Positions 2,121 to 63,900 of a stretch of DNA of 64,000 nucleotides are shown one piece after another. The stretch is taken from NCBI RefSeq assembly GCF_020731145.1, contig NZ_JAJFZN010000002.1:682001-746000 (forward strand). Reading direction: 5' to 3'. Position numbers and translations under genes: made by a program. Within the stretch, counting starts at the first letter, position 1, and each line of letters opens with the position of its first letter. The notes under the pieces are model-generated. The model made no database searches and had not been told where the DNA came from. It saw nothing but the letters and a program-made list of their open reading frames with translations. The stretch is from Sneathiella sp. HT1-7. GTDB taxonomy: Bacteria > Pseudomonadota > Alphaproteobacteria > Sneathiellales > Sneathiellaceae.

Positions 2121-3011
2121 TTGACCATAAACAGTATGACCGGCTTTGCCCGGGCGAGCGGCTCCTTCGACGGGGTTGGCTGGCTTTGGGAAGTGAAAAG
2201 CGTCAATGGCCGGGGGCTTGAGGCACGCTGCCGCTTACCGTCGGGCTTCGACCACCTTGAGGACAAGCTACGCAAGCTGGTCAAAGCGCGATTTGAGCGC
2301 GGCAATATTAATGTTCATCTCCAGCTTGAAAGCAGAACGGCAGGTGTGGCTTATCAGGTCAATCGGGGATTTCTCGAAGAGCTGCTCACCCTCGCCGGGC
2401 ATTATGTCGATGATGATCAGGCGCGTCGCCCCCGGATGGATGGCATGCTCGCGCTGCGCGGTGTGATCGAGCCGAAGGAGGATCCCGCCGCTGATGTTGA
2501 TACCGATGCCTTCACGGCGTCGCTGCTCACCTCGGCGGAGGAACTGATGGAGAGTCTGGCTGCTGCGCGCGGAGAAGAGGGGGCACAGCTTTTCCCGGTC
2601 CTGCTTGCGCAGCTCGATGAGATTGAGACGCTGGTCGGTCGCGCAGGCGAGATCACTAAAAGCTGGCCCGAGCGGGCCCGCGCCAAGATCAAGGCGCAGA
2701 TGGCCCTGATCCTGGAGGCGGCGGAGTTGGATGCGGGACGGCTGGAACAGGAACTCGCGCTGTTGACGACGAAAGCGGACATCTCGGAGGAGATTGACAG
2801 GCTTACGGGCCATATCGCGGCAACGCGCGAATTGCTGGAAGGTAGCACGAAAGGCAGTGTGGGGCGACGGCTTGACTTTATCTGCCAGGAATTCAACCGC
2901 GAGGCCAACACTCTGTGTTCAAAGGCCCATGACAAAGATCTCACGCAGATCGGTCTCGATCTCAAGGTGCTGGTGGATAAAATGCGCGAGCAGGTTCAGA
3001 ATATTGAGTAG
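2121..3011 (+). CDS. yicC: YicC family endoribonuclease
   Basis: The 296-residue protein has the YicC N-terminal hallmark (NSMTGFARASG near the start, then VKSVNGRGLEARCRLP) and the C-terminal DUF1732 block ending in GLDLKVLVDKMREQVQNIE. Both domains are present and the length is normal for the family. YicC/YloC proteins are hexameric endoribonucleases linked to stationary-phase survival and RNA turnover. The start used is TTG at 2121, because family members begin only four to six residues before the SMTG motif; the ATG at 2136 is the alternative and would trim five residues. gmk follows after 12 bases on the same strand, the usual yicC-gmk pairing. Confidence 0.92.
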   Translation: MTINSMTGFARASGSFDGVGWLWEVKSVNGRGLEARCRLPSGFDHLEDKLRKLVKARFERGNINVHLQLESRTAGVAYQVNRGFLEELLTLAGHYVDDDQARRPRMDGMLALRGVIEPKEDPAADVDTDAFTASLLTSAEELMESLAAARGEEGAQLFPVLLAQLDEIETLVGRAGEITKSWPERARAKIKAQMALILEAAELDAGRLEQELALLTTKADISEEIDRLTGHIAATRELLEGSTKGSVGRRLDFICQEFNREANTLCSKAHDKDLTQIGLDLKVLVDKMREQVQNIE

Positions 3012-3023
3012 GAAGAGTTAAAG

Positions 3024-3674
3024 ATGTCACCTGAAGTTGAGACAGAGGCGCTGACGCGGCGGGGGTTGATGCTGGTACTGTCCTCTCCATCGGGAGCAGG
3101 GAAAACCACAATTTCCCGCGCACTCTTGGAAGAGGATGAGGGGCTGGTTATGTCCGTCTCTGCGACCACTCGCGCGCGCCGTCCCGGCGAAGATGAGGGC
3201 CGGGACTATTATTTTGTCGAGCCTGTCGATTTCAACCTGATGATTAATCGCGACGAACTCTTGGAATACGCAAAGGTGTTTAACCATTATTATGGCACGC
3301 CGCGCGCTCCTGTTGAGAAGGCTCTGTCAGAGGGGCATGACATCCTGTTCGATATCGACTGGCAGGGCACGCAGCAGCTCGCCCAGAAATCAGGCGATGA
3401 TCTGGTGAGCATTTTCATCCTGCCGCCGTCCACCGCCGCGCTGGAAAAACGGCTCAAGACCCGGGCGCAGGACTCTGCGGAAGTGATTGCACAGCGGATG
3501 TCCAAGGCATCGGAAGAGATCAGTCATTGGCGGGAGTATGACTATGTGGTCGTCAATAAGGATGTCGATCAATGCCTTGCCGAGGTGAAGGCGATCTTGA
3601 AGGCGGAACGGCTCCGCACCCAGCGCCGGGCGGGCCTCATCGATTTCGTCAGTCGCCTGCGCGAGGGTTACTGA
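3024..3674 (+). CDS. gmk: Guanylate kinase
   Basis: It phosphorylates GMP to GDP with ATP, an essential cytoplasmic step of purine nucleotide supply. The P-loop SPSGAGKT sits at residues 21-28, followed by the GMP-binding region with [18 protein letters not shown]. The C-terminal lid and the conserved [10 protein letters not shown] segment are intact. The product is 216 residues, normal for the family, with a short N-terminal extension of about a dozen residues before the core. An AGGAAGAG ribosome-binding site precedes the ATG. Its last seven bases overlap the end of the convergent rsmA gene, so no room is left for an intergenic terminator between them. Confidence 0.97.
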
Positions 3675-4501
3675 TCGGCGTAGACCCGCGCCAGCGCGCA
3701 GAATTCCTCCACGGTGAGTTCCTCAGCCCGGCGGGTCGGGGTGATCCCGGCTTTTTCCAGCATGTCTTCCGTCGGCTTGCCGAGGGGTTTGAGGCTGGCG
3801 CGCAGCATCTTGCGACGCTGACCAAAGGCGGCGGCCACCACCCTCTCCAATATCTTCTGGTCGGCGGGGAAGGCGGGCGTGTCACGCGGGCGCAAGGTGA
3901 CGACGGTGCTGGTCACCTTTGGAGGTGGAGTGAAGGCACGCGGCGAGATATCAAACTCCCGCTTTGTCTCGCACAGCCATTGGCAGAGGATGCTGAGGCG
4001 ACCATAGGCCTTTGTACTTGGCACGGCCGTGATACGGTCGGAGACTTCCTTTTGGAACATTAAGGTGAGACTTGAGAACCGATCCCGTTTTCCCAGCCAT
4101 TTGATCAGCAGCGGCGTCGCCACATTATAGGGCAGGTTGGCAATGATCTTCGCCTTGCCGTCAAACAGTGCGGTCTCTTCAATTTCCAATGCATCGTCAT
4201 TCACCACTTCCAGACGGCCGGGATAGGCGTTTGAGATATCGGCCAAGGCGGGGAGGCAGCGGGTATCCTTCTCGATGGCGATGAGGCGTTTTGCGCCCGC
4301 GTCCAATATGGCGCGGGTCAGGCCGCCGGGGCCGGGACCAATCTCGATCACCGTCTTTCCCTCTAGTTTCCCGGCGCAGCGGGCAATGCGTCCGGTGAGA
4401 TTGAGGTCGAGCAGGAAATTCTGCCCGAGTGATTTCTCCGCATTGAGGCCATATCGCGCGATCACTTCACGCAGCGGGGGGAGGGCGTCGCCCTCAGTCA
4501 T
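3668..4501 (-). CDS. rsmA: 16S rRNA (adenine1518/1519-N6)-dimethyltransferase RsmA (KsgA)
   Basis: It dimethylates two adjacent adenines in the terminal helix of 16S rRNA using S-adenosylmethionine, a late quality step of small-subunit assembly. The N-terminal SLGQNFLLD motif, the SAM-binding EIGPGPGG (residues 53-60) and the catalytic NLPYN (122-126) are all present. Length (277 residues) is normal. It is the last gene of the lptF-to-rsmA operon. Its start overlaps the end of pdxA by eight bases, consistent with translational coupling. The pdxA-rsmA pairing is conserved across proteobacteria. Confidence 0.97.
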
Positions 4502-17464: not shown

Positions 17465-17494
17465 TTGACATGCAGGTAAATACCTGCATGATAT
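17465..17494 (+). promoter_or_regulatory. Promoter with overlapping ArsR-type operator
   Basis: A consensus -35 TTGACA at 17465-17470 is followed by TGATAT at 17489-17494 as the likely -10 (18-base spacer). A perfect palindrome covers the spacer: CATGCAGGTA (17469-17478), two bases AA, then TACCTGCATG (17481-17490). A repressor bound there would block RNA polymerase. The arsR-like gene starts 20 bases downstream, so autorepression by that protein is the obvious reading, though not shown. Confidence 0.75.
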
Positions 17495-52635: not shown

Positions 52636-52665
52636 TTGACGTAATAAGTCGAAAGTTGTTATAAT
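52636..52665 (+). promoter_or_regulatory. Predicted sigma-70 promoter
   Basis: TTGACG at 52636-52641 and TATAAT at 52660-52665, separated by 18 bases, within an AT-rich stretch. Transcription would run right into the gene at 52912, giving a leader of about 240 bases that contains the hairpin at 52770. Confidence 0.6.
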
Positions 52666-52911: not shown

Positions 52912-53421
52912 ATGACATCCAAACAGACGGGCGCTCGCACAGCGCGGGAAGCACTTTTGGCGCCACGTACGACAGATCGCAGCGTCAGATCACCCGCCTG
53001 CGGCCGGAACATAAAATTGCGATCCCGGCCCGGCGCTAATCCTTCGGGAAGACTTAGAAAGACAGATATGAAAGCGCGAGAGCCACGTCTCTTTTCCATG
53101 CTGACGGACGATCAGGTAAGGATTGCGGAGAAAATTGCCCGCGGATTTCATTTGCGTACAGCGGGGCTCGGTATGCGGACGCAAAATTATAGTCGATTAC
53201 CCTCATCAACGGGGAATACGGAGGATTGGCAGGTTGAGTTGATGCGTCGATTTATGCTCTGGGCTGTCCGGGTACAGGAAGCAGGTTTGTCGCTTTCTGC
53301 TGTGCTTGATGTCATTATATTTGGGAAGAGTTGCCGGGCTGTTGATCGAGCGCGAAAGAAGCGAAATGGCTATGCGCGGGCGCAGTTGAATGATGCCTTG
53401 GCGCTTTATGAAAACATATAA
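52912..53421 (+). CDS. Unknown phage-associated protein, possible regulator
   Basis: The 169-residue basic protein is not recognised with confidence. It has an Arg-rich, probably disordered N-terminus (1-55), then a helical C-terminal part with QVRIAEKIARGFHLRTAGLG and MRRFMLWAVRVQEAGLSLSA followed by a GKSCRAVDRARKKRNG segment. The C-terminal layout is faintly like DUF6456-type alphaproteobacterial DNA-binding proteins, a weak impression only. ATG 52912 follows GAGAGGAAC. It ends 24 bases before the late-operon promoter, a place where phages often encode late regulators. Confidence 0.6.
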   Translation: MTSKQTGARTAREALLAPRTTDRSVRSPACGRNIKLRSRPGANPSGRLRKTDMKAREPRLFSMLTDDQVRIAEKIARGFHLRTAGLGMRTQNYSRLPSSTGNTEDWQVELMRRFMLWAVRVQEAGLSLSAVLDVIIFGKSCRAVDRARKKRNGYARAQLNDALALYENI

Positions 53422-53444
53422 AAACACTTAATGATAGAAAAATA

Positions 53445-53481
53445 TTGACAATCGGGGAACGTTTCTTTATACTGATTGTCA
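53445..53481 (+). promoter_or_regulatory. Consensus promoter inside an inverted-repeat operator
   Basis: TTGACA (53445-53450) and TATACT (53468-53473) are separated by exactly 17 bases. The perfect inverted repeat TGACAATC (53446-53453) / GATTGTCA (53474-53481) overlaps the -35 box and the expected start point. A repressor or activator dimer pair could bind both arms. It fires toward an intrinsic terminator about 15 bases after the predicted start and then the terminase operon. Confidence 0.75.
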
Positions 53482-53494
53482 TAGTCGGAAATTG

Positions 53495-53535
53495 GGCCCA
53501 TGGAAATCGAAGAATTTCCGTGGGCCTTTCTTATT
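53495..53535 (+). terminator. Intrinsic terminator just after the phage promoter
   Basis: A 13-bp stem (53495-53507 with 53514-53526, one G-U pair) with a six-base loop, followed by TTTCTTATT. Without antitermination the promoter at 53445 would yield only a transcript of about 55 bases. The region to terS (53536-53705) has no gene but one more hairpin. Confidence 0.8.
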
Positions 53536-53592
53536 GAAGATTAAATCAATAAAAACAACGATAAAAAACCCAGCAAATTAAAAATATAGCCC

Positions 53593-53619
53593 CTCTGAGG
53601 AAATCTATCCTCCTCAGAG
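53593..53619. repeat. Hairpin ahead of terS
   Basis: CTCTGAGG (53593-53600) and CCTCAGAG (53612-53619) form a perfect 8-bp stem with an 11-base loop. No T-run follows. It could act in RNA regulation or be a packaging-related site near the terminase genes; neither is shown. Confidence 0.4.
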
Positions 53620-53705
53620 AACGCCGCATGGCGGAATAATTACGGTTTGAGTGAACACTAAATAGTAGTAAATATACTTATTGTCTATAAATTGAGGCTT
53701 CTGGA

Positions 53706-54107
53706 ATGTCGACCATCGAGCTGATTAAATCTGCCCTGAATAACAAGATATGGCGGCGTAATGTCGCCCTTCCACTGCTAGAGGATATCAAGCAGGCAGG
53801 AAGGATCAATGATATCGTTGCCCTATTGGGGTCCGTCTTTCTGAAGAAGGAGGAAGAGACCGTCCGCCGCTTTGTCGCGGATGTGTTTGCCGGGGAAATT
53901 CTGGAAATCGCTGACGGCGTCAATGATAACGGAGAAGACAAAGAGGCACGGGAGGATATTGCCCGCTCGAAGCTCCGGATCGATACGCGGAAATGGCTGA
54001 TGGCACATTTCGCACCGACGCAATATGGCGAGGGCGCGGCGAATGACAAGGGCAAGCGCAGCTTCCCCGTACCCCGCCTGTACCTGCCGGAAAATGGCCG
54101 TGATTAA
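53706..54107 (+). CDS. Terminase small subunit-like protein
   Basis: The 133-residue protein ends in the region typical of small terminase subunits: AREDIARSKLRIDTRKWLMA followed by HFAPTQYGE. The N-terminal half is helical and acidic-basic mixed. It should recognise phage DNA for packaging. Its end overlaps the large-subunit start by 14 bases. Confidence 0.78.
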   Translation: MSTIELIKSALNNKIWRRNVALPLLEDIKQAGRINDIVALLGSVFLKKEEETVRRFVADVFAGEILEIADGVNDNGEDKEAREDIARSKLRIDTRKWLMAHFAPTQYGEGAANDKGKRSFPVPRLYLPENGRD

Positions 54108-55440
54108 ACCGCAGCCGGGACCGCAGGAGATGTTCCTTGGCACTCCCGCCGACATCGCCATCTATGGCGGCGCGGCGGGTGGCGGCAAGAGCTTTGCCCT
54201 GCTGATGGAGCCACTCCGGCACATGGCGCAAGGGGAGTTCAAGGCCGTTATTTTCCGCCGCACCTCGAAACAGGTAAAGAATGAGGGCGGGCTTTGGGAT
54301 GCGTCCGCCGCGCTCTACGGGACCATTGGCGGTCGGGCGAAGGAAAGCGAGCTGTCTTGGAAGTTTCCGAGTGGAGCGTCGATCAGCTTCGGTCATCTGG
54401 AGCATGAGAAGAACAAGTACGACTGGCAGGGATCGGAACTTGCCTTCATCGGTTTTGACGAACTGACCCATTTCACCGAGACCCAGTTTTTTTACCTGTT
54501 GAGCCGCAATCGCTCCACCGGTCGAGCGCGGCCCTATGTGCGGGGAACCTGCAATCCGGACGCGGATAGTTGGGTTGCCGATTTTATCCGCTGGTGGATT
54601 GATCCGGAAACGGGCTACCCGGTTCCGGGACGGTCGGGCCAACTCCGTTGGTTTGTTCGTGATGAAGATAGTCTTATCTGGGGCGATGATAAACGCGCAT
54701 TGGAGCTGGCGCATCCGGGACAGGTGGCCAAGTCTGTCACCTTTATCGCTGCCTCCATTGACGATAACCGGATCCTGATGGAACGGGATCCGGGCTATCG
54801 CGCCAATCTTGCCGCGCTCTCCTCAATCGATCGGGAGCGGCTGTTAAAGGGAAACTGGAAAATCCGCCCTGCTGCGGGCGCCTATTTTCGCCGAAGCTGG
54901 TTTTCGGTGGTGCCGATGGCACCAGTTGAGGCGCGACGGGTGCGCGGCTGGGACTTGGCGGCCAGCCATATGGAACCGGGGACCTCTCCCGACTGGACCG
55001 TTGGGGCGCGACTCGCCCGGGACGCCAGTGGGGTGTTCTATGTAGAACATATAGAGCGGCTGCGGGGCACGCCGAATGAGGTCGAGCGCGCCATCCGCAA
55101 TCTTGCCATGAGTGACGGGCGGGAGACGCAAATCGCCCTGCCGCAGGATCCGGGGCAGGCGGGAAAGGCGCAAGTCCAGGCGCTCGTCCGGCTGCTCGCG
55201 GGCTTCCGGATAAAAAGCCAGCCTGTCACCGGCAGCAAGGTCGTCCGTGCCATGCCATTCTCGTCGCAGGCCGAGGCGGGCAATGTCCGTCTTGTGGCGG
55301 GACCGTGGAACGCGGATTTCCTCAATGAACTCGAGAATTTTCCGACCGGTCGTCATGATGATCAGGTCGACGCGGTCTGCGAGGCGTTTCACGCTCTCAC
55401 CCAAGTTTCACAGAAATCACAACAGGATATGTACTCATGA
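54094..55440 (+). CDS. Terminase large subunit
   Basis: The 448-residue packaging motor has a Walker A-like P-loop GGAAGGGKS at residues 25-33, Walker B with acidic pair in LAFIGFDELTHF (about 125-137), and a C-terminal RNase H-like nuclease part beginning near RVRGWDLAASHMEPG and ending with FPTGRHDDQVDAVC, which supplies the catalytic acids. ATG 54094 (MAVIKPQPGPQEMFLG) is chosen; the frame extends upstream inside terS without family similarity. The portal gene overlaps the end by four bases. Confidence 0.93.
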   Translation: MAVIKPQPGPQEMFLGTPADIAIYGGAAGGGKSFALLMEPLRHMAQGEFKAVIFRRTSKQVKNEGGLWDASAALYGTIGGRAKESELSWKFPSGASISFGHLEHEKNKYDWQGSELAFIGFDELTHFTETQFFYLLSRNRSTGRARPYVRGTCNPDADSWVADFIRWWIDPETGYPVPGRSGQLRWFVRDEDSLIWGDDKRALELAHPGQVAKSVTFIAASIDDNRILMERDPGYRANLAALSSIDRERLLKGNWKIRPAAGAYFRRSWFSVVPMAPVEARRVRGWDLAASHMEPGTSPDWTVGARLARDASGVFYVEHIERLRGTPNEVERAIRNLAMSDGRETQIALPQDPGQAGKAQVQALVRLLAGFRIKSQPVTGSKVVRAMPFSSQAEAGNVRLVAGPWNADFLNELENFPTGRHDDQVDAVCEAFHALTQVSQKSQQDMYS

Positions 55441-56759
55441 ACGATCCTTCCACATCCTCCCAGCTATATGATTTAATGGCGACGCGCTGGGCACTGCCGA
55501 AGGCGCTGATGGGCGGCACGCTGGCCATGCGGGCCGCGGGCACACGATATCTGCCGCGCCATCCGGCGGAGAATAGCGCCATCTATACGGAGCGGGCGAG
55601 CCGATCAGTGTTGCGCAATCATTTCCGCCGCACCGTGACCAAACTCGTTGGTCGCATCTTTGCCGAACCACTCATCATCTCGGAGGATATGCCAGATGAA
55701 CTGGTCGCGATTTTGCGCAATATCGATCTCGTTGGGAGGGGCCTTAATGTCTTCGCTCGCGACTGGTTCGAGGATGCGCTGGTCTCCGGTCTTTCTCATG
55801 TGCTGGTGGATTTCCCAGCGTCGGCGGGTGGGCAGTCCCTTGCCGAGGAGCGGGAGCAGGGCGCGCGGCCCTATGCGGTCCATGTCCGCGCCGATCAGCT
55901 GATTGCCGCACAATGGGACAGCCGGAGCGGTGACAAGGTGCTGACGCAAATCCGCATTCGCGAGAAGGCGTTGCGCTATCACGGGTTCGATGAGCGGGAG
56001 GAGGAACAGATCCGCGTGATCGAGCCGGATCGCTGGCGTGTCTACCGGCAGGACAAGAAGGGCATCTGGCAGGAGGCGGACGCCGGGGAGAATACCCTGG
56101 GCCGTATCCCGCTTGTCACCCTTTACACCGCGCGGACAGGATTTTTGCAGGCCGAGCCGCCGCTGGAAGACCTCGCGTTCCTCAATCTGGAGCATTACCA
56201 GATCCGCTCCGATCAGCGGAACGCGCTTAATGTCGCGTCCTTCCCGATCCTCGCGGCCTCCGGCTACAACCCGGAGATTGATGGCCCGATCGAGGTGGGC
56301 CCCAACAAGGTGCTGACCACCAGCGAGAGCGAGGGCAAATATTACTATGTGGAGAGTTCCGGTGCGGCGCTGGAGGCGGGGGCGCGAGAGTTGGAGGCGC
56401 TGGAAAAAGCCATGCTGATGTTCGGTCTGCAGTTCGAGACGCCAAAGCAGATGGAGACGGCTACGGGCCGGGCGCTGGACGCCGCCGATGCTCTCTCGCC
56501 GCTTTCCGCCATGGCGATGAACCTGGAAGACAGCCTGAATGCCATGCTGTCGCTGTTCGCGGACTGGCTGGAAATGCCGCTTATCGGCAGTATCGGCGTC
56601 AGCACCAAATCGGGCGCGGCGCAAAATAATGAGCGCGATCTCGATTTCCTATTGGAAGCGCGACGCCTCGGTGACGTGAGCGGGGAGGAACTGATCCGCG
56701 AAGCGAAGACGCGCGGACTTCTAAGTGACAGTCTCAAGGTGAACGCTGCTGCTGACTAA
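55437..56759 (+). CDS. Portal protein, DUF4055 type
   Basis: The 440-residue protein matches the DUF4055 family of phage portal-like proteins: a start with ENSAIYTERASRSVLRNHFR, RIFAEPLIISEDMPDEL, the central FLQAEPPLEDLAFLNLEHYQ and the C-terminal MQFGLQFETPKQMETATG-like LMFGLQFETPKQMETATGRA. Position directly after the terminase confirms the role. It would form the dodecameric DNA channel at a head vertex. Confidence 0.88.
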   Translation: MNDPSTSSQLYDLMATRWALPKALMGGTLAMRAAGTRYLPRHPAENSAIYTERASRSVLRNHFRRTVTKLVGRIFAEPLIISEDMPDELVAILRNIDLVGRGLNVFARDWFEDALVSGLSHVLVDFPASAGGQSLAEEREQGARPYAVHVRADQLIAAQWDSRSGDKVLTQIRIREKALRYHGFDEREEEQIRVIEPDRWRVYRQDKKGIWQEADAGENTLGRIPLVTLYTARTGFLQAEPPLEDLAFLNLEHYQIRSDQRNALNVASFPILAASGYNPEIDGPIEVGPNKVLTTSESEGKYYYVESSGAALEAGARELEALEKAMLMFGLQFETPKQMETATGRALDAADALSPLSAMAMNLEDSLNAMLSLFADWLEMPLIGSIGVSTKSGAAQNNERDLDFLLEARRLGDVSGEELIREAKTRGLLSDSLKVNAAAD

Positions 56760-56787
56760 CCCATCCAACATTTAATTATTTACCCAC

Positions 56788-56811
56788 AGAGCCCCGTTTC
56801 GGGGCTTTTTT
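56788..56811 (+). terminator. Intrinsic terminator after the portal gene
   Basis: AGCCCCG/CGGGGCT stem with a TTT loop and six T, in the 65-base gap before the scaffold gene. It lies inside the presumed late operon, so read-through or antitermination is needed for the genes beyond. Confidence 0.88.
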
Positions 56812-56824
56812 ATTGAGGTTTTCC

Positions 56825-57529
56825 ATGTTTGAATTTCCCATTGACGTGACCGACTTAAGCGAGGTGCCGGAGCAGTACCACGGGCTCTACCAGCCGGAGG
56901 AGGAGGGGTTCACCCTCGATCCCCTGCTCGCCGAAAAGCTGGATGTGTCCGGTCTGCTCTCGGCGCTTGAAAAGGAGCGGGGCAATGCACAGGGCTTCGA
57001 GAAGGAGCTGAAGGCTTGGCAGGCACTCGGCCCCGATCCGGAAACCGCCTGGGCCGATAAACAAAAGGCGCTCAGCGCGGAATTCACGGAACAGTTCGAT
57101 GCGATTATCGAGGCGAAGGACGTGGAGATTACCCGCCTGAAGGAGCTGAACGCCGAGTTCCTGATCACCACCCGCGCGACGGAGGCGCTTTTGAAAGCCG
57201 GCGGTAGCGTCGAGCTGTTGATGCCGCATATTCGCGCCGCGATCACGTTGGTGGAGGAAGAGGGCGCTCCCTCCCTTCGTGTTATCGATACCGACGGCTC
57301 CTTCCGCGAGAAGGCGGAAGGGGTGCCCCTGACCGTCGAGGATCTGGTGGCGGAAATGCGGAGCTCCCCCGTCTTTGCCCGCGCCTTCAACCCGACCGGC
57401 AGCAAGGGCAGCGGCATGGACCCGAGCGGGGTGCCCGTCAATCGCGCCACCATCAATGGACAGAACCAATGGGCGCTCAACGCCCGGATCGAGGATATCG
57501 CCGCCGGGAAGGTGTCGGTCTCGATGTAG
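56825..57529 (+). CDS. Capsid scaffold-like protein
   Basis: The 234-residue acidic protein has a central helical/coiled region (about 40-125, rich in Glu, Lys and Leu) and a disordered C-terminal tail with GSKGSGMDPSGVP. Size, composition and position just before the coat gene fit a phage scaffold, although sequence alone is not diagnostic. ATG 56825 has TGAGG seven bases upstream. Confidence 0.7.
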   Translation: MFEFPIDVTDLSEVPEQYHGLYQPEEEGFTLDPLLAEKLDVSGLLSALEKERGNAQGFEKELKAWQALGPDPETAWADKQKALSAEFTEQFDAIIEAKDVEITRLKELNAEFLITTRATEALLKAGGSVELLMPHIRAAITLVEEEGAPSLRVIDTDGSFREKAEGVPLTVEDLVAEMRSSPVFARAFNPTGSKGSGMDPSGVPVNRATINGQNQWALNARIEDIAAGKVSVSM

Positions 57530-57610
57530 AGAACCAAGTCCGCGGGATGCGGCAGGGCCCGGGACGGGTCTGCAATAACCCCTTAATCCCTTATTCTGGA
57601 GATAAAGAAA

Positions 57611-58741
57611 ATGGCAAATGATATCTCGGCCGCCATGCCGAAGATCCTTGCGCGCGGCCTGATGGCCCTGCGCGAACAGACCGTGATGCCCCGCCTCGTG
57701 AATGGCGATTTCAGTGCCGATGCGGCTGAGAAGGGCGACACCATCGATGTGATCCTGCCGTCCGACCTGACGGCGGATGACGTGACGCCCGGCACAACGC
57801 CGCCGACTCCGACCAGCTCGACATTGGAGAAGGTGCAGATTGAGCTGAACAACTGGAAGAAGGCGGATTTCTACCTCACCGACAAGGAGATGATGGAGGT
57901 CGAGGCGCGGGAGAATTTCATGCCCGTACAGGCGAGCGCGGCCATCCGTGCGCTTGCCAATGCCGTCAACCAGTCGATCCATGCGAAATATACCGGCATC
58001 TATGGTCTGGTCGGCACGGCAGGCACGACGCCCTTTGCGTCGGATGCCAGCGATGCGACGGCAGCCAGAAAGCTGCTGCTGGAGCAAAAGGCCCCGAAAG
58101 AATTCCGCTATGGCGTGCTCGATTTCGATGCGGAATCCAACGCGCTAGACCTCGCGGCCTTCGCTGATGCGGACCGCGCGGGCAGCAGCTCCGCCAAGAT
58201 CGAAGGCGAGATCGGCCGCAAATACGGGATCGACTGGTATAGCGATGACCATGTCGCTACCCATGTGACCGGCGCGGAGGGAACGCCGCTGGTGAAAGGC
58301 GGATCCCAGACCGGCACCAGCCTGATCGCCGATGGCTTTACGACCAAACCCTCCGTCGGCGATATCTTCACCATTGATGGCGACACGCAGCAATATGTCG
58401 TGCAGGCCGCAACGGACCTGTCGGGCACGGACTCGACCCTGACCATCGCCCCGGCGATTAGTTCTGCGCCGTCGGATAACGCGGCGATGACCTTTGTCGC
58501 GGATCATGTGGTCAATCTGGTGTTCAATCGTGATGCCTTTGCCTTCGCCAACCGTCCGCTGGCCCACAGCACCCAGGACATGGGACTCGGCAGCCAGATC
58601 CTTTCGATGACCGATCCGATGACCGGCATCTCGCTCCGCCTTGAGGTGGCGCGCCAGTATAAGCAGGTCGTCTGGGAGTTTGACATCCTTTGGGGTGTTG
58701 CGCTGGTCCGGCCCGAGCTGGCGGTCCGCCTCGCTGGCTGA
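57611..58741 (+). CDS. Major capsid protein, P22 coat-like
   Basis: The 376-residue protein resembles P22-type coat proteins: LARGLMALREQTVMPRLVNG, KGDTIDVILPSDL, VQIELNNWKKADFYLTDKEM and the closing DPMTGISLRLEVARQYKQVV. An inserted beta-rich segment with TIDGDTQQYVVQAATDL (about 255-300) looks like the small I-domain-type insertion. A GGAGATAAAG site precedes the ATG. A strong terminator directly follows, consistent with a need for high, bounded expression. Confidence 0.88.
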   Translation: MANDISAAMPKILARGLMALREQTVMPRLVNGDFSADAAEKGDTIDVILPSDLTADDVTPGTTPPTPTSSTLEKVQIELNNWKKADFYLTDKEMMEVEARENFMPVQASAAIRALANAVNQSIHAKYTGIYGLVGTAGTTPFASDASDATAARKLLLEQKAPKEFRYGVLDFDAESNALDLAAFADADRAGSSSAKIEGEIGRKYGIDWYSDDHVATHVTGAEGTPLVKGGSQTGTSLIADGFTTKPSVGDIFTIDGDTQQYVVQAATDLSGTDSTLTIAPAISSAPSDNAAMTFVADHVVNLVFNRDAFAFANRPLAHSTQDMGLGSQILSMTDPMTGISLRLEVARQYKQVVWEFDILWGVALVRPELAVRLAG

Positions 58742-58748
58742 CCGGAGT

Positions 58749-58783
58749 GGGGAGCGGTACGAAACATCACCGCTCCCCTTTTT
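58749..58783 (+). terminator. Strong intrinsic terminator after the coat gene
   Basis: A perfect 10-bp stem, GGGGAGCGGT (58749-58758) with ACCGCTCCCC (58769-58778), followed by five T. Together with the terminator at 56788 it brackets the scaffold-coat pair. Confidence 0.93.
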
Positions 58784-58810
58784 CTTATGTGATTGAGCAG
58801 GAAAAAATCC

Positions 58811-59281
58811 ATGACCTTGATAACCGAAACCGGCAGCGGCGTGACCGGGGCGACGAGTTACGTGTCGCTTGCCGAGGCGGACAGCCATTTCACTGCGCTC
58901 GCTAATGACGACTGGACCAGCGCCACGGACGGGCAGCGTGAACAGGCGCTGATCCGGTCGGCCCTGCATATCGACAGCTATCTTTATCCCGGCACGGTTC
59001 TTGACTGGGATCAGGGCCTGAAATGGCCGAGGAGTGGCGCCTATGATAGGGACGGTCGGGCCATGACGGGCATCCCCCATGCATTGCGCACCGCGACGCT
59101 GGAGCTTGCGGATATCTTTCTGCGTGATTCCGAGGGCCTCGATGAGCGGCAGGTGACGCGACAGAAGATCGGCCCCATCGAGGTGACGTATGAGGAGGGA
59201 AGGAAGCGCATGAGCTTCGTCTTTCGCCTGCTGCAGCAGATCGGCGCGCGCGCCCAGGACAGCCAGATGGTGAGGGGGTGA
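58811..59281 (+). CDS. Head-tail connector (DnaT-like/gp6-like adaptor)
   Basis: The 156-residue protein fits the phage family annotated as DnaT-like single-stranded DNA-binding or head-tail adaptor: GATSYVSLAEADSHFTALAN, AALIRSALHIDSY-like (ALIRSALHIDSYLYPG) and IGPIEVTYEEGRK. ATG 58811 follows AGGA at a good distance. Its position after the coat protein favours an adaptor role. Confidence 0.75.
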   Translation: MTLITETGSGVTGATSYVSLAEADSHFTALANDDWTSATDGQREQALIRSALHIDSYLYPGTVLDWDQGLKWPRSGAYDRDGRAMTGIPHALRTATLELADIFLRDSEGLDERQVTRQKIGPIEVTYEEGRKRMSFVFRLLQQIGARAQDSQMVRG

Positions 59282-59284
59282 ACC

Positions 59285-59644
59285 ATGCGGAACGAAACTA
59301 TCCGGCGAATGGTGCGCGATCTCTTCGATACCATCGGAGAGGTGGCGGTGAGCGCAACGCTCCGCCAGAAAGCACAAGGGGATTACGATCCCGGCACCGG
59401 CACGGTGGAGACCACAAGCGATACCGCGATCCGCTTGGTGCGGACGGAGAAAAGGCTCGTTGATACGGCGAATGCGGACGGCACGCCGATTGATCCTCCG
59501 CTTCATCATGCGCTGATCGAGTGCGAGGACGTGACGCCGAAGGCCGATGACGACCTGATTATCGGCTCTTCGACTTTCACCCTGTTGCAGGTGGTCGCGG
59601 TCGATACCGGTGCGGGCATTCTTTATGAGGTGAGCTACCAATGA
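59285..59644 (+). CDS. Probable head-closure / neck protein
   Basis: A 119-residue protein made mainly of beta segments (VSATLRQKAQGDYDPGTGTV, DTAIRLVRTEKRLV, LIIGSSTFTLLQVVAV), typical in size and place for a head-tail joining protein. I recognise no exact family. It overlaps the next gene by four bases. Confidence 0.65.
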   Translation: MRNETIRRMVRDLFDTIGEVAVSATLRQKAQGDYDPGTGTVETTSDTAIRLVRTEKRLVDTANADGTPIDPPLHHALIECEDVTPKADDDLIIGSSTFTLLQVVAVDTGAGILYEVSYQ

Positions 59645-60030
59645 GCTATCGCAAAATACAGGCGGTGCTGGATGCGCGGCTTCAGGCTTATGAGTCTGAC
59701 GATGTGGCCTTCCCGGGAACGCCTTATTATCCCGCCCATGGCACCTCATATCTGGAGGTTCAGTTCCTGCCAGCCCCGGCGGAGGGGATATTCCTCGGCT
59801 CCGGCGCGGTGGAGCTGCATACGGGCGACTATCGCATCACCGTCCATGACGCGGATATGGCCTCCGCGCAGAGCCGCATCGATGCCCTGCGGTCGCATTT
59901 CAACAAGGGTCGCGTGCTGACGTTCGAGAGCGTTGATGTTCATCTCGACGGTGCGACTGTGGGCGCCAAAGAGGGCGACCTCAAGAAAATCGCCATCCCG
60001 CTTCTCGTTTCCTGGCGCAGCTATTTTTAA
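59641..60030 (+). CDS. Tail terminator / completion protein (DUF4128-like)
   Basis: The 129-residue protein has the alpha-beta order of tail terminators: an N-terminal helix (IQAVLDARLQAYES), FLGSGAVELHTGDYRITVHD, and ending in IPLLVSWRSYF. It matches the general pattern of DUF4128 phage proteins, which cap the growing tail tube. Confidence 0.7.
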   Translation: MSYRKIQAVLDARLQAYESDDVAFPGTPYYPAHGTSYLEVQFLPAPAEGIFLGSGAVELHTGDYRITVHDADMASAQSRIDALRSHFNKGRVLTFESVDVHLDGATVGAKEGDLKKIAIPLLVSWRSYF

Positions 60031-60041
60031 GGAGCCAATCA

Positions 60042-60947
60042 ATGACCTTTGCCACCGGAGCCCAGCATGGGCTGACCTATATCGCCGAAAGTGTCTTCGG
60101 CACGACGCCGGCCTCGCCGGAGATGACGTCATGTCGTCATACGGCCTGCAGCCTCGGTCTTTCCAAGACGACGCTGGAGACGGCGGAAATCCGCAGCGAC
60201 CGCCAGATCGCCCATCTCCTGCACGGGCAGAAGACCGTCTCGGGCAATATAGATATGGAGCTTTCTTACGGCGCGTTTGATGACATGCTTGCGGCGGTGA
60301 TGCAATCAAGTTGGTCGTCCAATGTGTTGAAAGCGGGCGCGAGCCAGCCGAGCTTCACTTTTGAGCGGGGCTTCGCTGACATTGGCCAGTATCAGGTGCT
60401 GACCGGCTGCGTGATCGACCGACTGCGTCTCAATGTCCGGCCGGATCGGTTGATCGCGGGAACATTTGGTCTTGTCGGCAAATCCTCCGCGATCAATTCC
60501 TCTTCCCTTGATGCGAGCCCGACGGCTGCCGCCGCCAATGACCCGATGGACAGCTTCTCCGGATCACTGGAAGAGGGGGGCAGCAGCATCGGTATCGTGG
60601 TCGGTCTGGAACTGAATATCGATAACGGCCTGGAGCAGGCCTTCGTGATCGGGGAGGACGAGGCGACGAGCCTGTTCGCCGGGCAATCGCGTATTACCGG
60701 GGAAATCACCACCTATTTCGAGGATGCGGCGCTGCTCAACAAATTCGCCGCCCGCACCGAAAGCAGCCTTACGCTTACCTGCAGCGGGGCCGGCGGCAGT
60801 CTTGAGTTCGATCTCCCGCGGATTGTCTACACCGGGGCGGAGAACCCGACGCTGGGCGCAGGGCCGATCACCCTCTCGTTGCCCTTTAGCGCACTCTATG
60901 ACGAGACGGAAGCCACCAACCTGAAAATCACCCGGACCGCAGCATAG
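60042..60947 (+). CDS. Phage tail tube protein
   Basis: The 301-residue protein resembles large tube proteins of siphophages: GLTYIAESVFGTTPASPEM, RSDRQIAHLLHGQKTVSGN, ITGEITTYFEDAALLNKF and LPFSALYDETEATNLKITR at the end. It should polymerise as the tail tube around the tape measure. A GGAG site lies 10 bases before the ATG. Confidence 0.85.
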   Translation: MTFATGAQHGLTYIAESVFGTTPASPEMTSCRHTACSLGLSKTTLETAEIRSDRQIAHLLHGQKTVSGNIDMELSYGAFDDMLAAVMQSSWSSNVLKAGASQPSFTFERGFADIGQYQVLTGCVIDRLRLNVRPDRLIAGTFGLVGKSSAINSSSLDASPTAAAANDPMDSFSGSLEEGGSSIGIVVGLELNIDNGLEQAFVIGEDEATSLFAGQSRITGEITTYFEDAALLNKFAARTESSLTLTCSGAGGSLEFDLPRIVYTGAENPTLGAGPITLSLPFSALYDETEATNLKITRTAA

Positions 60948-60957
60948 GAGGGGTTAA

Positions 60958-61350
60958 ATGCCTAAGAATGTATTTGATGTGGCAGCGTTTGACCTGAAGG
61001 CCCGGTCGGAGGCGGGGGCGCCGCTCACCCTCCGTCATCCCAAGACGGGCGAAGACCTCCCCGCCGTTATCTGGCTGCAGGGGGAGGATGCGGAGAATTA
61101 CCGCAAGTGCCTCCGGTCGCAGATCGACCGGCAGATCATGGAACGCAAGCTGGAACTGACCGCCGCAGAACTGGAGGAACGGCTGATCGAACGGCTTACC
61201 GCGATTACGCTGCGGTTCGAGAATATCGAATTCGACGGTGTGAGTTACGACACCACGCCGGAGAATATCTTGAGGCTCTATCGGGAGCATCTCTGGATCC
61301 GCGAGCAGGTCGCCGCCTTCGTGGAGGACCGGGCCAATTTTTTGCCCTGA
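60958..61350 (+). CDS. Tail assembly chaperone, unshifted product
   Basis: The 130-residue acidic, helical protein sits between tail tube and tape measure, the place of gpG in lambda. It ends NFLP just after a slippery run. A downstream frame at -1 extends it. Both forms would coat the tape-measure protein during tail assembly. Confidence 0.8.
   Translation: MPKNVFDVAAFDLKARSEAGAPLTLRHPKTGEDLPAVIWLQGEDAENYRKCLRSQIDRQIMERKLELTAAELEERLIERLTAITLRFENIEFDGVSYDTTPENILRLYREHLWIREQVAAFVEDRANFLP
61338..61344 (+). promoter_or_regulatory. Slippery heptamer for -1 programmed frameshift
   Basis: T TTT TTG in the frame of the upstream gene fits the X XXY YYZ rule, two codons before its stop at 61348. Slipping back one base lets ribosomes enter the frame that stays open to 61700. 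Confidence 0.75.
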
Positions 61351-61700
61351 CCGCCGCCCGATTGAAAGACTGGGCGGCGCATCAATTCCATCTGTCGGAG
61401 GAGGTGGGCCCGGGTATCACCCGTGCCGCCGCCAACCGTCAGCTTGCAAAAACAACAGGCCGGGAAATCGCCGATATAGCAATGGCTGCGCCGCCACCGT
61501 CCTGCATCGCCCATGTCTGGGGCTGGTTTTTGGTGCTTCTGCCGCTCTATGCAGAGGGGCCTCTGTCGCGCCCGGCACTGATTGCGGCGGATATCGAGGC
61601 GCGCTTCGGCCTCCGCCCCGCAGGGTTTGAGGTCGGGCTTCTCCTCGATCTCTTCACTCTCTGGCGACGGCTACGGCCCAGAGACGCAGAACAAGGATAA
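61344..61700 (+). CDS. Tail assembly chaperone, -1 frameshift extension
   Basis: After a -1 shift at 61338-61344 the chain reads ALTAARLKDWAAHQFHLSEE and continues for 118 residues to LLLDLFTLWRRLRPRDAEQG, making a fusion of about 247 residues, analogous to lambda gpGT. Alternatively a TTG at 61362 could start it alone, but no ribosome-binding site is seen. It is followed after five bases by the tape-measure gene. Confidence 0.75.
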   Translation, partial: ALTAARLKDWAAHQFHLSEEVGPGITRAAANRQLAKTTGREIADIAMAAPPPSCIAHVWGWFLVLLPLYAEGPLSRPALIAADIEARFGLRPAGFEVGLLLDLFTLWRRLRPRDAEQG

Positions 61701-61705
61701 GAATA

Positions 61706-62446
61706 ATGGTAAAAAATACAGATTTATCCGCCTTTGGCGGTATCGATACGGCGCTCAAAGGTCTCGATGCGCTCAGCGACAAGACCCGTAAGGCAGAAAG
61801 GGAAGCACAGCTTCTCACCCGCCAATTCGACGGGCTGAAAAGCGATCTTGCAGGCTCCGGCAGAAACGGCTTCGTCGATGACTTGAATACCGGGCTTGCC
61901 ACCGCGATGGAGGAAATGAACGGCTTTGCGGAGATTTCCGGCAAGGTGGCGGCAAGCATCGGAAATGCCTTTGAAAACGCGTTCGAGAAGCTGCTGATCT
62001 CGGGGAAGGATTTCAAGTCGGTTCTGAAAGGGCTGGAGGCCGATCTCATTCGTCTCGGCACAAAGACATTCACCTCGGCAGCGGGGCAGAGCCTTGGCGG
62101 TTCCGGCGAACTGTTTGGTGAACTTGCGGGCGCGTTTTTCGGCGGTGGCGGTTCGTCGCTCGCCAGCCTGATCCCCGGTTTCTCCACCGGCGGGCAGTTC
62201 ACCGTCGGCGGCGCGTCCGGGGTGGACCAGAATCTTGTCCCCCTTCGTCTGACGCGGGGCGAACGGGTGACGATCGAGACCCCGGCGCAGCAGCGGGGAA
62301 ATAACGCCGCTGCCAGTCCGACGCCGGTTATCAATATGGCGTTCAACATCTCGACGCCCGACGCAGCAAGCTTTCGCCTCAGCCAGACGCAGATCCAGGG
62401 CGAAGCACTCCGTCAGGCGCAACGCAGTCTTAGAAGGAACGGATAA
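61706..62446 (+). CDS. Short tail tape-measure protein, GTA-like
   Basis: A 246-residue protein with an N-terminal coiled-coil-like part (LSDKTRKAEREAQLLTRQFD) and a hydrophobic C-terminal half with glycine-rich FFGGGGSSLASLIPGFSTGG and NLVPLRLTRGERVTIETP, the tape-measure end signature. Such short tape measures are found in the Rhodobacter GTA (gp11) and predict a tail of only a few tens of nanometres. Confidence 0.85.
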   Translation: MVKNTDLSAFGGIDTALKGLDALSDKTRKAEREAQLLTRQFDGLKSDLAGSGRNGFVDDLNTGLATAMEEMNGFAEISGKVAASIGNAFENAFEKLLISGKDFKSVLKGLEADLIRLGTKTFTSAAGQSLGGSGELFGELAGAFFGGGGSSLASLIPGFSTGGQFTVGGASGVDQNLVPLRLTRGERVTIETPAQQRGNNAAASPTPVINMAFNISTPDAASFRLSQTQIQGEALRQAQRSLRRNG

Positions 62447-62449
62447 ACC

Positions 62450-63058
62450 ATGAGCTTTCATGACGTCAGATTCCCGACCCGTGTCTCTTATGGCGCGGTG
62501 GGCGGGCCCCGCTTCTCGACCACGGTGCAGATTTTGAACTCCGGGTATGAGCAGCGCAATATCAACTGGGCGCAGGCACGGCGTGAATACACCGTCGATA
62601 TCAGCCCGAGCCGGGGCGCGGAATGGACCGCCGTGCTTGATTTCTTTCACGCGCGGCGCGGCCGGGCCTATGGCTTTCGCCTGAAGGATTTTTCAGATTT
62701 TGAAATGGCTGAACAATCTATCGGCACCGGCGATAACAGCACCACAGAATTTCAGATTGTCAAGCGCTACATCGACGATGATGAACTGGCCCCGCCCTAT
62801 GACCGGGAGCTGAAGAAGATCGTCTCCGGCACGGTCGAGGTCTCCGTCGGCGGCGCACCCATGGTGAGCGGTTGGAGCGTGGATGAAACGACCGGCATCC
62901 TCAGCTTTGATAGCGCGCCCGCGACGGACGCGGATATCGCGGTGGCTTGCGAGTTCGATGTGCCGGTCCGCTTCGATACGGACCTGATGCAGGCCGCCAT
63001 TCCGGGGCCGGACATCCATCACTGGCAGAGCGTTAAACTGGTGGAGATACGGATATGA
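62450..63058 (+). CDS. Distal tail protein, DUF2460 (GTA gp12-like)
   Basis: The 202-residue protein is a DUF2460 member: DVRFPTRVSYGAVGGPRFST, NINWAQARREYTVDISP, FFHARRGRAYGFRLKDFSDF and the C-terminal HHWQSVKLVEIRI. In the Rhodobacter GTA this family forms the distal tail ring. It starts three bases after the tape-measure stop and overlaps the next gene by four. Confidence 0.93.
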   Translation: MSFHDVRFPTRVSYGAVGGPRFSTTVQILNSGYEQRNINWAQARREYTVDISPSRGAEWTAVLDFFHARRGRAYGFRLKDFSDFEMAEQSIGTGDNSTTEFQIVKRYIDDDELAPPYDRELKKIVSGTVEVSVGGAPMVSGWSVDETTGILSFDSAPATDADIAVACEFDVPVRFDTDLMQAAIPGPDIHHWQSVKLVEIRI

Positions 63059-63900
63059 AGTCTCTCAGTGCGGCCCTGAACAGCCATATCGCCGGGGAGG
63101 TGACCACACTCGCCACCTGCTGGGCGCTGACCCGGCAGGACGGGACGGAAATGTTCTTCACCGATTTCGATGAGGATCTGGAAATCGATGGCGACATCTA
63201 TCTGGCGGCCAGCGGTTATTCCCGCTCGGCTATTGCGAATTCCAGCAGCTTCAGCGTCGATAACCTCGATATCATCGGCAATCTCACCAGCGATGTCATC
63301 CGGGAGGAGGATCTCTTCGCGGGCCTTTATGACTTTGCCGAGGTGCGGATTTTCATGGTCAACTGGCAGGATCTCTCCCAGGGCACCATTCCGTTGCGGC
63401 GTGGCTGGATCGGGGAAGTCTCGGCGCATGATGGCGCCTTCACAGCGGAGCTGCGCGGCCTCGCCCAGGCGCTCCTTTATGAGGTTGGGGAGGTCTATTC
63501 CCCCCTCTGCGGCGCGGACCTCGGAGATAGTCGCTGTGGCGTCGATGTGGACGTACTGACTGAAACTGACGTGGTGGCGAGTGTCACTTCCCGCGATCAG
63601 TTCACGCTCACCGACTATAGCGGCGCGGATGATGTACTGAATGGCGGGGTGCTGACCTTTACCAGCGGTGCGAACGCCGGGCTCTCTTGCGAAATCCGTG
63701 ACTGGATGCAAACGGGTAAGACGCTGACCCTCTATCTGGAAATGCCGTACGAGGTTCAGGCGGGGGATGAGGTTTCCTTCTTTCCCGGTTGCGACAAGCG
63801 CTATGCGACCTGCCGCGATAGCTTCTCGAACCATCACAATTTCCGGGGTTTTCCGCATATTCCGGGCACTGATGCCCTGCTGGAGACCGGCGATGCTTGA
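63055..63900 (+). CDS. Tail hub protein, DUF2163 (GTA gp13-like)
   Basis: The 281-residue protein is a DUF2163 member: an N-terminal LATCWALTRQDGTEMFFTDF, VDNLDIIGNLTSD and the C-terminal NFRGFPHIPGTDALLETGDA. Four conserved Cys, in PLCGADLGDSRCGVD and PGCDKRYATCRD (residues about 148-252), match those that bind an Fe-S cluster in the GTA hub. The peptidase gene begins inside its end. Confidence 0.93.
   Translation: MKSLSAALNSHIAGEVTTLATCWALTRQDGTEMFFTDFDEDLEIDGDIYLAASGYSRSAIANSSSFSVDNLDIIGNLTSDVIREEDLFAGLYDFAEVRIFMVNWQDLSQGTIPLRRGWIGEVSAHDGAFTAELRGLAQALLYEVGEVYSPLCGADLGDSRCGVDVDVLTETDVVASVTSRDQFTLTDYSGADDVLNGGVLTFTSGANAGLSCEIRDWMQTGKTLTLYLEMPYEVQAGDEVSFFPGCDKRYATCRDSFSNHHNFRGFPHIPGTDALLETGDA

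Follow-up and report, generated by a model that had tools for sequence, protein, structure and literature searches.

At a locus of Sneathiella sp. HT1-7 a consensus-like promoter stands before phage-like late genes and is followed almost at once by an intrinsic terminator, which raises the question of how transcription could pass from this promoter into the genes behind it and which protein might govern the passage. The locus lies in the window, by which we mean the whole stretch of DNA analysed (64 kb), and its gene order is cysK (on the opposite strand), a gene for a protein of 169 aa that begins at position 52912 (hereafter the 52912 protein), the promoter-terminator switch, the terminase genes terS and terL and then structural genes (Table 1).

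Table 1. Features of the switch and of its neighbourhood, in window coordinates
Feature	Position	Strand	Evidence
Promoter of candidate antiterminator gene, TTGACG-18-TATAAT	52636..52665	+	scan, 11/12
Candidate antiterminator gene, 169 aa	52912..53421	+	homologs in 22/25 family genomes; AF2 models
Direct repeat copy 1, AACACTTAATGATAGAAAA, just 5' of the -35 box	53423..53441	+	sequence comparison
Late promoter, TTGACA-17-TATACT	53445..53473	+	promoter scan; ortholog comparison
Inverted repeat TGACAATC/GATTGTCA, perfect 8 bp	53446..53481	.	present; not conserved as repeat
Spacer motif GGGGAAC (-27 to -21), candidate antiterminator-binding element	53454..53460	+	ortholog conservation
-10-like hexamer CATAGT (-1 to +5), candidate sigma-dependent pause element	53480..53485	+	ortholog conservation
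Intrinsic terminator, +14 to about +52	53494..53532	+	scan, folding, ortholog test
Direct repeat copy 2, AACACTAAATAGTAGTAAA, 5' of terS	53654..53672	+	
Terminase small subunit terS, Sf6 type	53706..54107	+	PF20901, E 6e-12
Terminase large subunit terL	54097..55440	+	phrog_979, E 3e-166
Late genes: portal, scaffold, P22-type coat, adaptor, tail genes, DUF2460, Gp84_N-type hub	55437..63900	+	Pfam, PHROG matches

The late promoter, its conserved elements and the terminator

Checking of the letters bore out the promoter of the first-pass annotation in full, with the -35 box TTGACA at 53445-53450, a spacer of 17 nt and the -10 box TATACT at 53468-53473, from which we place the putative transcription start at A53481. 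The 19 kb scanned for promoters hold 15 promoter-like sites scoring at least 9/12, compared with 9.5 (sd 2.9) in shuffles, and the late promoter is one of the two that reach 11/12. The candidate antiterminator gene has a promoter of its own, and when 8 close loci are aligned its TTGAC and a TATA-type block prove to be conserved.

The switch was compared in 21 orthologous copies from Sneathiella, all different and anchored on the promoter, which were kept from 24 loci found; L011, whose gene is cut off by the end of the contig, was left out along with the additional copies L023 and L024, and the promoter of L017 was placed by hand where the automatic scan had picked another site. In column counts that are not independent, because the orthologs are related, TTGA of the -35 box is kept in 21/21 copies and the AA 5' of it in nearly all (A at -7 in 21/21 and at -6 in 20/21, counted from the -35 box), the spacing is 17 except in L013 and L021 (18), and the invariance of A2 and T6 of the -10 box is by construction, since the scan demanded them. 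Within the spacer, GGG at -26 to -24 is found in 20, 21 and 20 of the 21 copies and C-21 in 18/21. Around the predicted start there is a hexamer of the form CANNNT, in which C-1 and A+1 are present in 21/21 and T+5 in 20/21 copies, the bases between them varying more. A -10 element is likewise recognised by sigma region 2 through an A and a T, four positions apart, that stay constant in an otherwise variable hexamer, and the hexamer lies where pause elements of the initial transcribed region are located. Further downstream A+10 and A+11 (20/21 each) and GGG at +14 to +16 (18, 19 and 18 of 21) are conserved as well, and a single ortholog, L022, has neither the spacer GGG nor T+5.

The spacer element and the -10-like element are, in their predicted roles, the cis elements of Q/AlpA-type antitermination. 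The lambdoid late-promoter plan named in the first-pass annotation is supported, with an antiterminator as the likely factor, and the comparison adds to it the spacer motif and the putative pause element. Both GGG and A+1/T+5 occur together at 11 of 922 promoter-like sites (13 stretches, 9 genomes), nine of which are the late cassette, one per genome, and two of which lie elsewhere; because these cassettes served to define the pattern, the count gives its rarity elsewhere and not an independent rediscovery. Viral contigs contain five copies of the module, three of them identical to orthologs already counted and two of them new variants, L095 (77% identical to its nearest relative) and L096 (95%). 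Of 58 TerL relatives on viral contigs, five have regulator and module, while in the remaining 53 the regulator was not found by HMM at E 0.01, some of the flanks being short.

The terminator starts 13 nt past the inferred start and consists of a stem of 14 pairs (53494-53507 with 53514-53527) around a 6-nt loop, followed by TTCTTATT. A strong terminator soon after the start had been noted from the letters of this genome, and these stand as read; the structure is also conserved in the orthologs. The first 60 nt of the RNA fold at -25.8 kcal/mol (z -4.4), a value matched by none of 200 shuffles, and a strict test for a hairpin plus T-tract was passed by 17/21 orthologs compared with 39/1106 control stretches; the four failing copies (L014, L015, L019 and L022) yet show a hairpin followed by T by eye. 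The terminator begins exactly at +14 in 12/21 orthologs. In a 10-sequence subset 96.3% of the cells of the stem are paired, and five pairs are altered on both sides, a number reached in 7/500 shuffles.

Two further features of the region were observed. A second terminator-like hairpin lies on the minus strand at 53591-53621, between the late terminator and terS, and on either side of the promoter-terminator cassette stands a copy of a 19-nt direct repeat, the two copies being about 230 bp apart. Two copies of the direct repeat are also present in L002, L003, L005 and L007, and in L095 by eye; in the genome of the window, copy 1 is the sole match at up to 2 mismatches. A direct-repeat regulon was sought in six genomes at up to 3 mismatches and rejected: matches with at most 2 mismatches lie at the locus in G000, G007, G009 and G022, G002 has such a match elsewhere, and matches with 3 mismatches occur elsewhere in G000, G002, G004 and G022.

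The candidate antiterminator and its possible relatives

Proteins of the Q/AlpA type have a C-terminal helix-turn-helix (HTH) and an N-terminal ring in the RNA exit channel. The 52912 protein is predicted to have a disordered N-terminus, a conserved LRTxGLGxRTQ loop and a C-terminal HTH resembling sigma region 4; in the AF2 models the HTH is confident and preceded by long helices, and the conserved loop is of low confidence. The protein was without a family-model match in Pfam, PHROG and NCBIfam. The first-pass annotation had proposed it as the DNA-binding partner of the switch, a part that is likely for it as a candidate antiterminator and not supported for it as a repressor.

All fold matches of the protein are weak (Z under 8, Foldseek E at least 0.1) and below the level that would be trusted alone. 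They are mostly to sigma region 4 domains, with VIA Z up to 7.0; AlpA in its loaded complex (7xyb_G) ranks 44th of the 50 matches listed, with Z 5.0, rmsd 5.4, 94/114 residues and 18% identity, and the unrelated response regulator DosR (3c3w) reaches a comparable coverage (Z 5.2, 99 residues, rmsd 7.3). Neither AlpA nor 21Q is among the 50 matches listed for the full-length model or in its VIA re-ranking, an absence that carries no weight, and a profile search of the PDB gave no match to any solved antiterminator. The first viral match that the domain model gives in Foldseek is to a DUF6456 protein, at E 0.11 and probability 0.99. Scans of viral contigs with the window, L049 and L023 proteins gave no relatives, and none of the phage records matches the window protein at E 0.1.

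The Pfam model of DUF6456 (PF20057; GafA/GafZ) does not match the 52912 protein, while in a control search it does match in Caulobacter vibrioides. Profiles were then compared with seven aligned DUF6456 proteins (13 loci found with the profile, 12 looked at), and the two families are collinear over 102-107 columns. Regarding significance, the genus alignment A1 gave P 0.039 (probability 1%), and the addition of distant relatives gave P 0.0013 (18%) for A4 and P 0.00024 (44%) for A5; column shuffles reached the score in 1/60 cases for A1 and 0/60 for A4. The score of A4 against DUF6456 is 28.8, compared with 16 for a sigma-4 control set, which takes in LuxR-type proteins, and 17 for an XRE control. 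The 52912 protein is thus possibly a remote relative of the DUF6456 GafA/GafZ regulators of gene transfer agents (GTAs).

One residue of the HTH follows the spacer motif across the orthologs. All 20 orthologs with the spacer GGG carry R151, a residue of the HTH turn, and in L022, the one copy without GGG, R151 is replaced. It is also replaced in two paralogous copies whose promoters lack GGG. This link calls for caution, since the paralog promoters, located by scan, are uncertain and the lineages are not independent. R151 may be the residue that reads the spacer site.

Class-wide, the regulator profile matches 14 of 387 genomes, six of which belong to the genus of the window. L023 (in G021) and L024 (in G005) are second, divergent copies of the regulator with T-rich hairpins, seen by eye, before the next reading frame, and possibly represent the same system in other prophages. 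The more distant protein relatives L048-L056 do not show the same promoter; among them only L049 and L050, from other Alphaproteobacteria, lie just 5' of T-rich terminator-like hairpins and phage-like genes (by eye).

The gene cluster and its inheritance

The head-tail cluster behind the switch is about 15 kb long, and in L057 it runs on past the window to about position 17465, with NlpC-like and Rcc01698_C proteins. The regulator gene is present in 22/25 genomes of the family, which amounts to 22/24 of the genus; the genomes without it are two genus assemblies that are 65-66% complete and G001, which belongs to another genus. The regulator is adjoined by terS in 19/22 loci and by cysK in 14/22, and of the three loci without an adjoining terS, L011 and L022 end too soon and L015 (in G006) has no structural genes there. 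The genes from terS to g17 are present and collinear in 8/9 genomes, including that of the window (~20-40 kb), and G005 has no match to g7. In the complete genome G006 (L088, 1781-7500) regulator, promoter and terminator are kept, the terS-g17 genes were not found at the locus, and no TerL was found anywhere in the genome. An XRE-type gene, whose product is a candidate repressor, adjoins the regulator in 9/22 loci (L013 and L015-L022, G006 included); a search of the window found no such gene.

Regarding inheritance, distances of the regulator correlate with those of TerL (r 0.84, p 0.0001, n 19) and those of TerL with those of cysK (r 0.63, p 0.002, n 12), while the correlation of regulator and cysK distances is not significant (r 0.34, p 0.07, n 14). 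The dN/dS values of four structural genes compared with two relatives are 0.03-0.15, and no integrase or replication families were detected by Pfam and/or PHROGs in the 20 proteins of the cluster from the regulator to g20. Synteny, selection, vertical inheritance and the lack of integrase and replication genes in the cluster together point to a domesticated cluster, either a GTA or something like one; maintained at a single chromosomal site throughout the genus under purifying selection, the cluster is probably a GTA or a similarly domesticated prophage.

The coat protein is of the PF11651/phrog_283 type, from which the RcGTA coat protein differs, and RcGTA-type head genes are not present; the DUF2460 and NlpC-like genes do resemble those of RcGTA. 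According to the available portions of a published scan, 0 RcGTA-like clusters were counted for Sneathiellales (PMC6821227), which fits the different head genes of the cluster, and the literature searched describes neither a GTA of Sneathiella nor this cluster.

The sister genus genome G001 has no relative of the regulator and does have a related terS, a terL that is 62% identical and some related tail genes. In L185 of this genome (reverse complement, about 2712-4252) a reading frame that is unrelated and matches neither Pfam nor PHROG comes first, and after it stand a weaker promoter, a hairpin with T-tract and then the related terS-terL; the promoter-like site is TTGACT-17-CATTAT (9/12) without a spacer GGG (by eye, one genome), and the switch adjoins a CI/LexA-like reading frame (by eye). 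This single genome, judged by eye, hints that the plan of the switch outlives an exchange of its regulator, as among Q families.

Proposed mechanism, alternatives and known systems

We read the locus, with a probability of about 0.7, as the late promoter of a domesticated GTA-like prophage cluster under promoter-loaded (Q/AlpA-type) antitermination by the 52912 protein. Promoter, spacer motif, -10-like element, terminator, synteny and genus-wide conservation come from the sequence, and from these we infer start site, pause, binding, loading and read-through as follows. A sigma-70-type polymerase would start at A53481, and sigma region 2 would grip the -10-like hexamer (-1 to +5), so that the polymerase would pause after about 13-16 nt. 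The 52912 protein would bind the spacer GGG..C via its C-terminal HTH and load onto the paused polymerase, which would then pass the terminator and go on to transcribe terS and the structural genes; polymerase lacking the protein would yield no more than a ~55-nt RNA. The conservation is concentrated on the functional positions (TTGA, GGG..C, C-1 and A+1, T+5 and the terminator), which supports this reading, and the register shared with AlpA, the rarity of the combined pattern at other promoter-like sites, the co-occurrence of R151 with GGG, the sigma-4-like HTH, the collinearity with the DUF6456 profile, the conservation of the terminator and the viral-contig copies of the module count for it also. 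Against it we count the exception of L022, the relatedness of the orthologs, the weak fold matches, the failure to find a sequence match to a solved antiterminator, the regulator-less G001 and the distant relatives L048-L056 without the same promoter.

Rather than loading as an antiterminator, the 52912 protein might be a GafA-like activator that helps initiation, the terminator being merely a barrier to read-through from upstream. GafA is described as binding the RcGTA promoter at -10/-35/TSS and contacting the omega subunit of RNA polymerase in the available portions of PMC9638019, and the DUF6456 relationship is possible; this remains unlikely, since the promoter is already near consensus (11/12), activation alone would still yield ~55-nt RNAs with a terminator at +14, and the -10-like element would be left without a role. 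Alternatively, the terminator could belong to the transcript of the antiterminator gene itself, behind an ordinary and leaky promoter. The hairpin does begin only 72 nt past the stop codon of the upstream gene, and the terminator could also end the mRNA of that gene; as the sole explanation we find this quite unlikely, because the promoter is kept even where the -35 box starts inside the upstream coding sequence (L006, L015, L016, L020, L021 and the hand-placed L017) and the terminator sits at +14 in more than half of the orthologs.

The first-pass annotation had itself seen a repressor-operator switch in the 8-bp inverted repeat, whose arms are TGACAATC at 53446-53453 and GATTGTCA at 53474-53481. 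The repeat exists, being perfect in the window and in L003 and 7/8 in L014, but its operator role was not upheld: across the 21 orthologs the arms match at 4.62/8 positions compared with 4.56 when arms are swapped between species, 42% of permutations equalling or exceeding the observed matching, so that covariation of the arms is absent. Perfect 8-bp repeats (loop 4-40) number 55 in the 64-kb window, four of them within 53400-53700, where the terminator stem can raise the count. The operator model was rejected on the arm-swap test, and such a switch is very improbable here. It is more improbable still that the ~55-nt RNA is a functional small RNA in its own right, as had also been suggested. 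Its first 16 nt are largely conserved and a stable hairpin follows them, but the conserved 5' bases suit DNA elements for sigma, and the best-scoring 5' stems are of 20 distinct kinds among 21 orthologs; with these diverging stems, and with no Rfam match in the window at the gathering threshold, the small-RNA model was rejected.

Returning to promoter-loaded antitermination, its Q-type form is best known from gamma-proteobacterial phages and from AlpA, and the lambda leader is long, that of Sneathiella being far shorter. As far as the available portions of the cited papers describe them, the precedents of 21Q, AlpA and GafZ make each step of the mechanism plausible. The lambdoid Q/PR' system likewise has a spacer element, a -10-like element in the initial transcribed region and a terminator before the late genes; it differs in that the 52912 protein has no Q family match and that the -10-like element of lambda PR' spans +1 to +6, the polymerase pausing at ~16 nt (PMC4604602). 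Spacer element and -10-like element are both needed for 21Q and AlpA (PMC6606751, PMC9371919). For AlpA at PalpB of Pseudomonas aeruginosa the -10-like element spans -1 to +5, with A+1 and T+5 required, the two bases conserved in Sneathiella, and the binding element is GGGACG at -25 to -20, compared with GGG..C at -26 to -21 in Sneathiella, which is within a base in a numbering that rests on the inferred start (PMC9371919). A downstream intrinsic terminator and a C-terminal HTH protein (predicted for Sneathiella) are further likenesses, whereas no sequence homology was found, the AlpA cargo is a cell-death pathway instead of a phage-like cluster and the regulator gene of Sneathiella, unlike that of AlpA/PalpB, directly adjoins the promoter.

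Within the Alphaproteobacteria, GafZ is an experimentally supported antiterminator that acts at a GTA promoter, between the -10 and -35 boxes, and reads through terminators (PMC11150451). The Caulobacter GTA promoter PgtaT resembles the Sneathiella switch as a GTA-type late promoter with a site between -10 and -35, and both systems have a predicted sigma-like HTH and, as inferred for Sneathiella, terminator read-through. They differ in that the GafZ site is a near-palindrome, that terGTA follows the first gene instead of beginning at +14, and that a GafY-like gene adjoins for GafZ where cysK adjoins in Sneathiella; the available portions of the GafZ text are silent on pausing and on a -10-like element. 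Regarding RcGTA and GafA of Rhodobacter (PMC9638019, likewise in available portions), the RcGTA-like tail-end protein Rcc01698_C is shared and DUF6456 is possibly related, whereas the P22-type coat protein and the Sf6-type terminase small subunit set the Sneathiella cluster apart.

Thus, the switch is most likely of the Q/AlpA type and run by a protein that in sequence is unlike the described antiterminators. Base-level conservation across the genus predicts a loading site, a pause element and the residue that may read the site, which makes the mechanism directly testable on a template of 100 bp with a single small protein. The findings also suggest that Sneathiella has a GTA-like element that seems not to have been reported before. 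Tentatively, and at somewhat less than even odds, this would be an undescribed genus-wide GTA with a P22-type head and an RcGTA-like tail tip, and its production would be controlled by an antiterminator family that is new and connects the GafZ/DUF6456 regulators with the nozzle mechanism of AlpA and Q. GafZ provides antitermination in GTAs, and we know of no described mechanism for its loading; if the proposed link is true, a sigma-dependent pause may be the point at which GafZ-type GTA regulators load as well.
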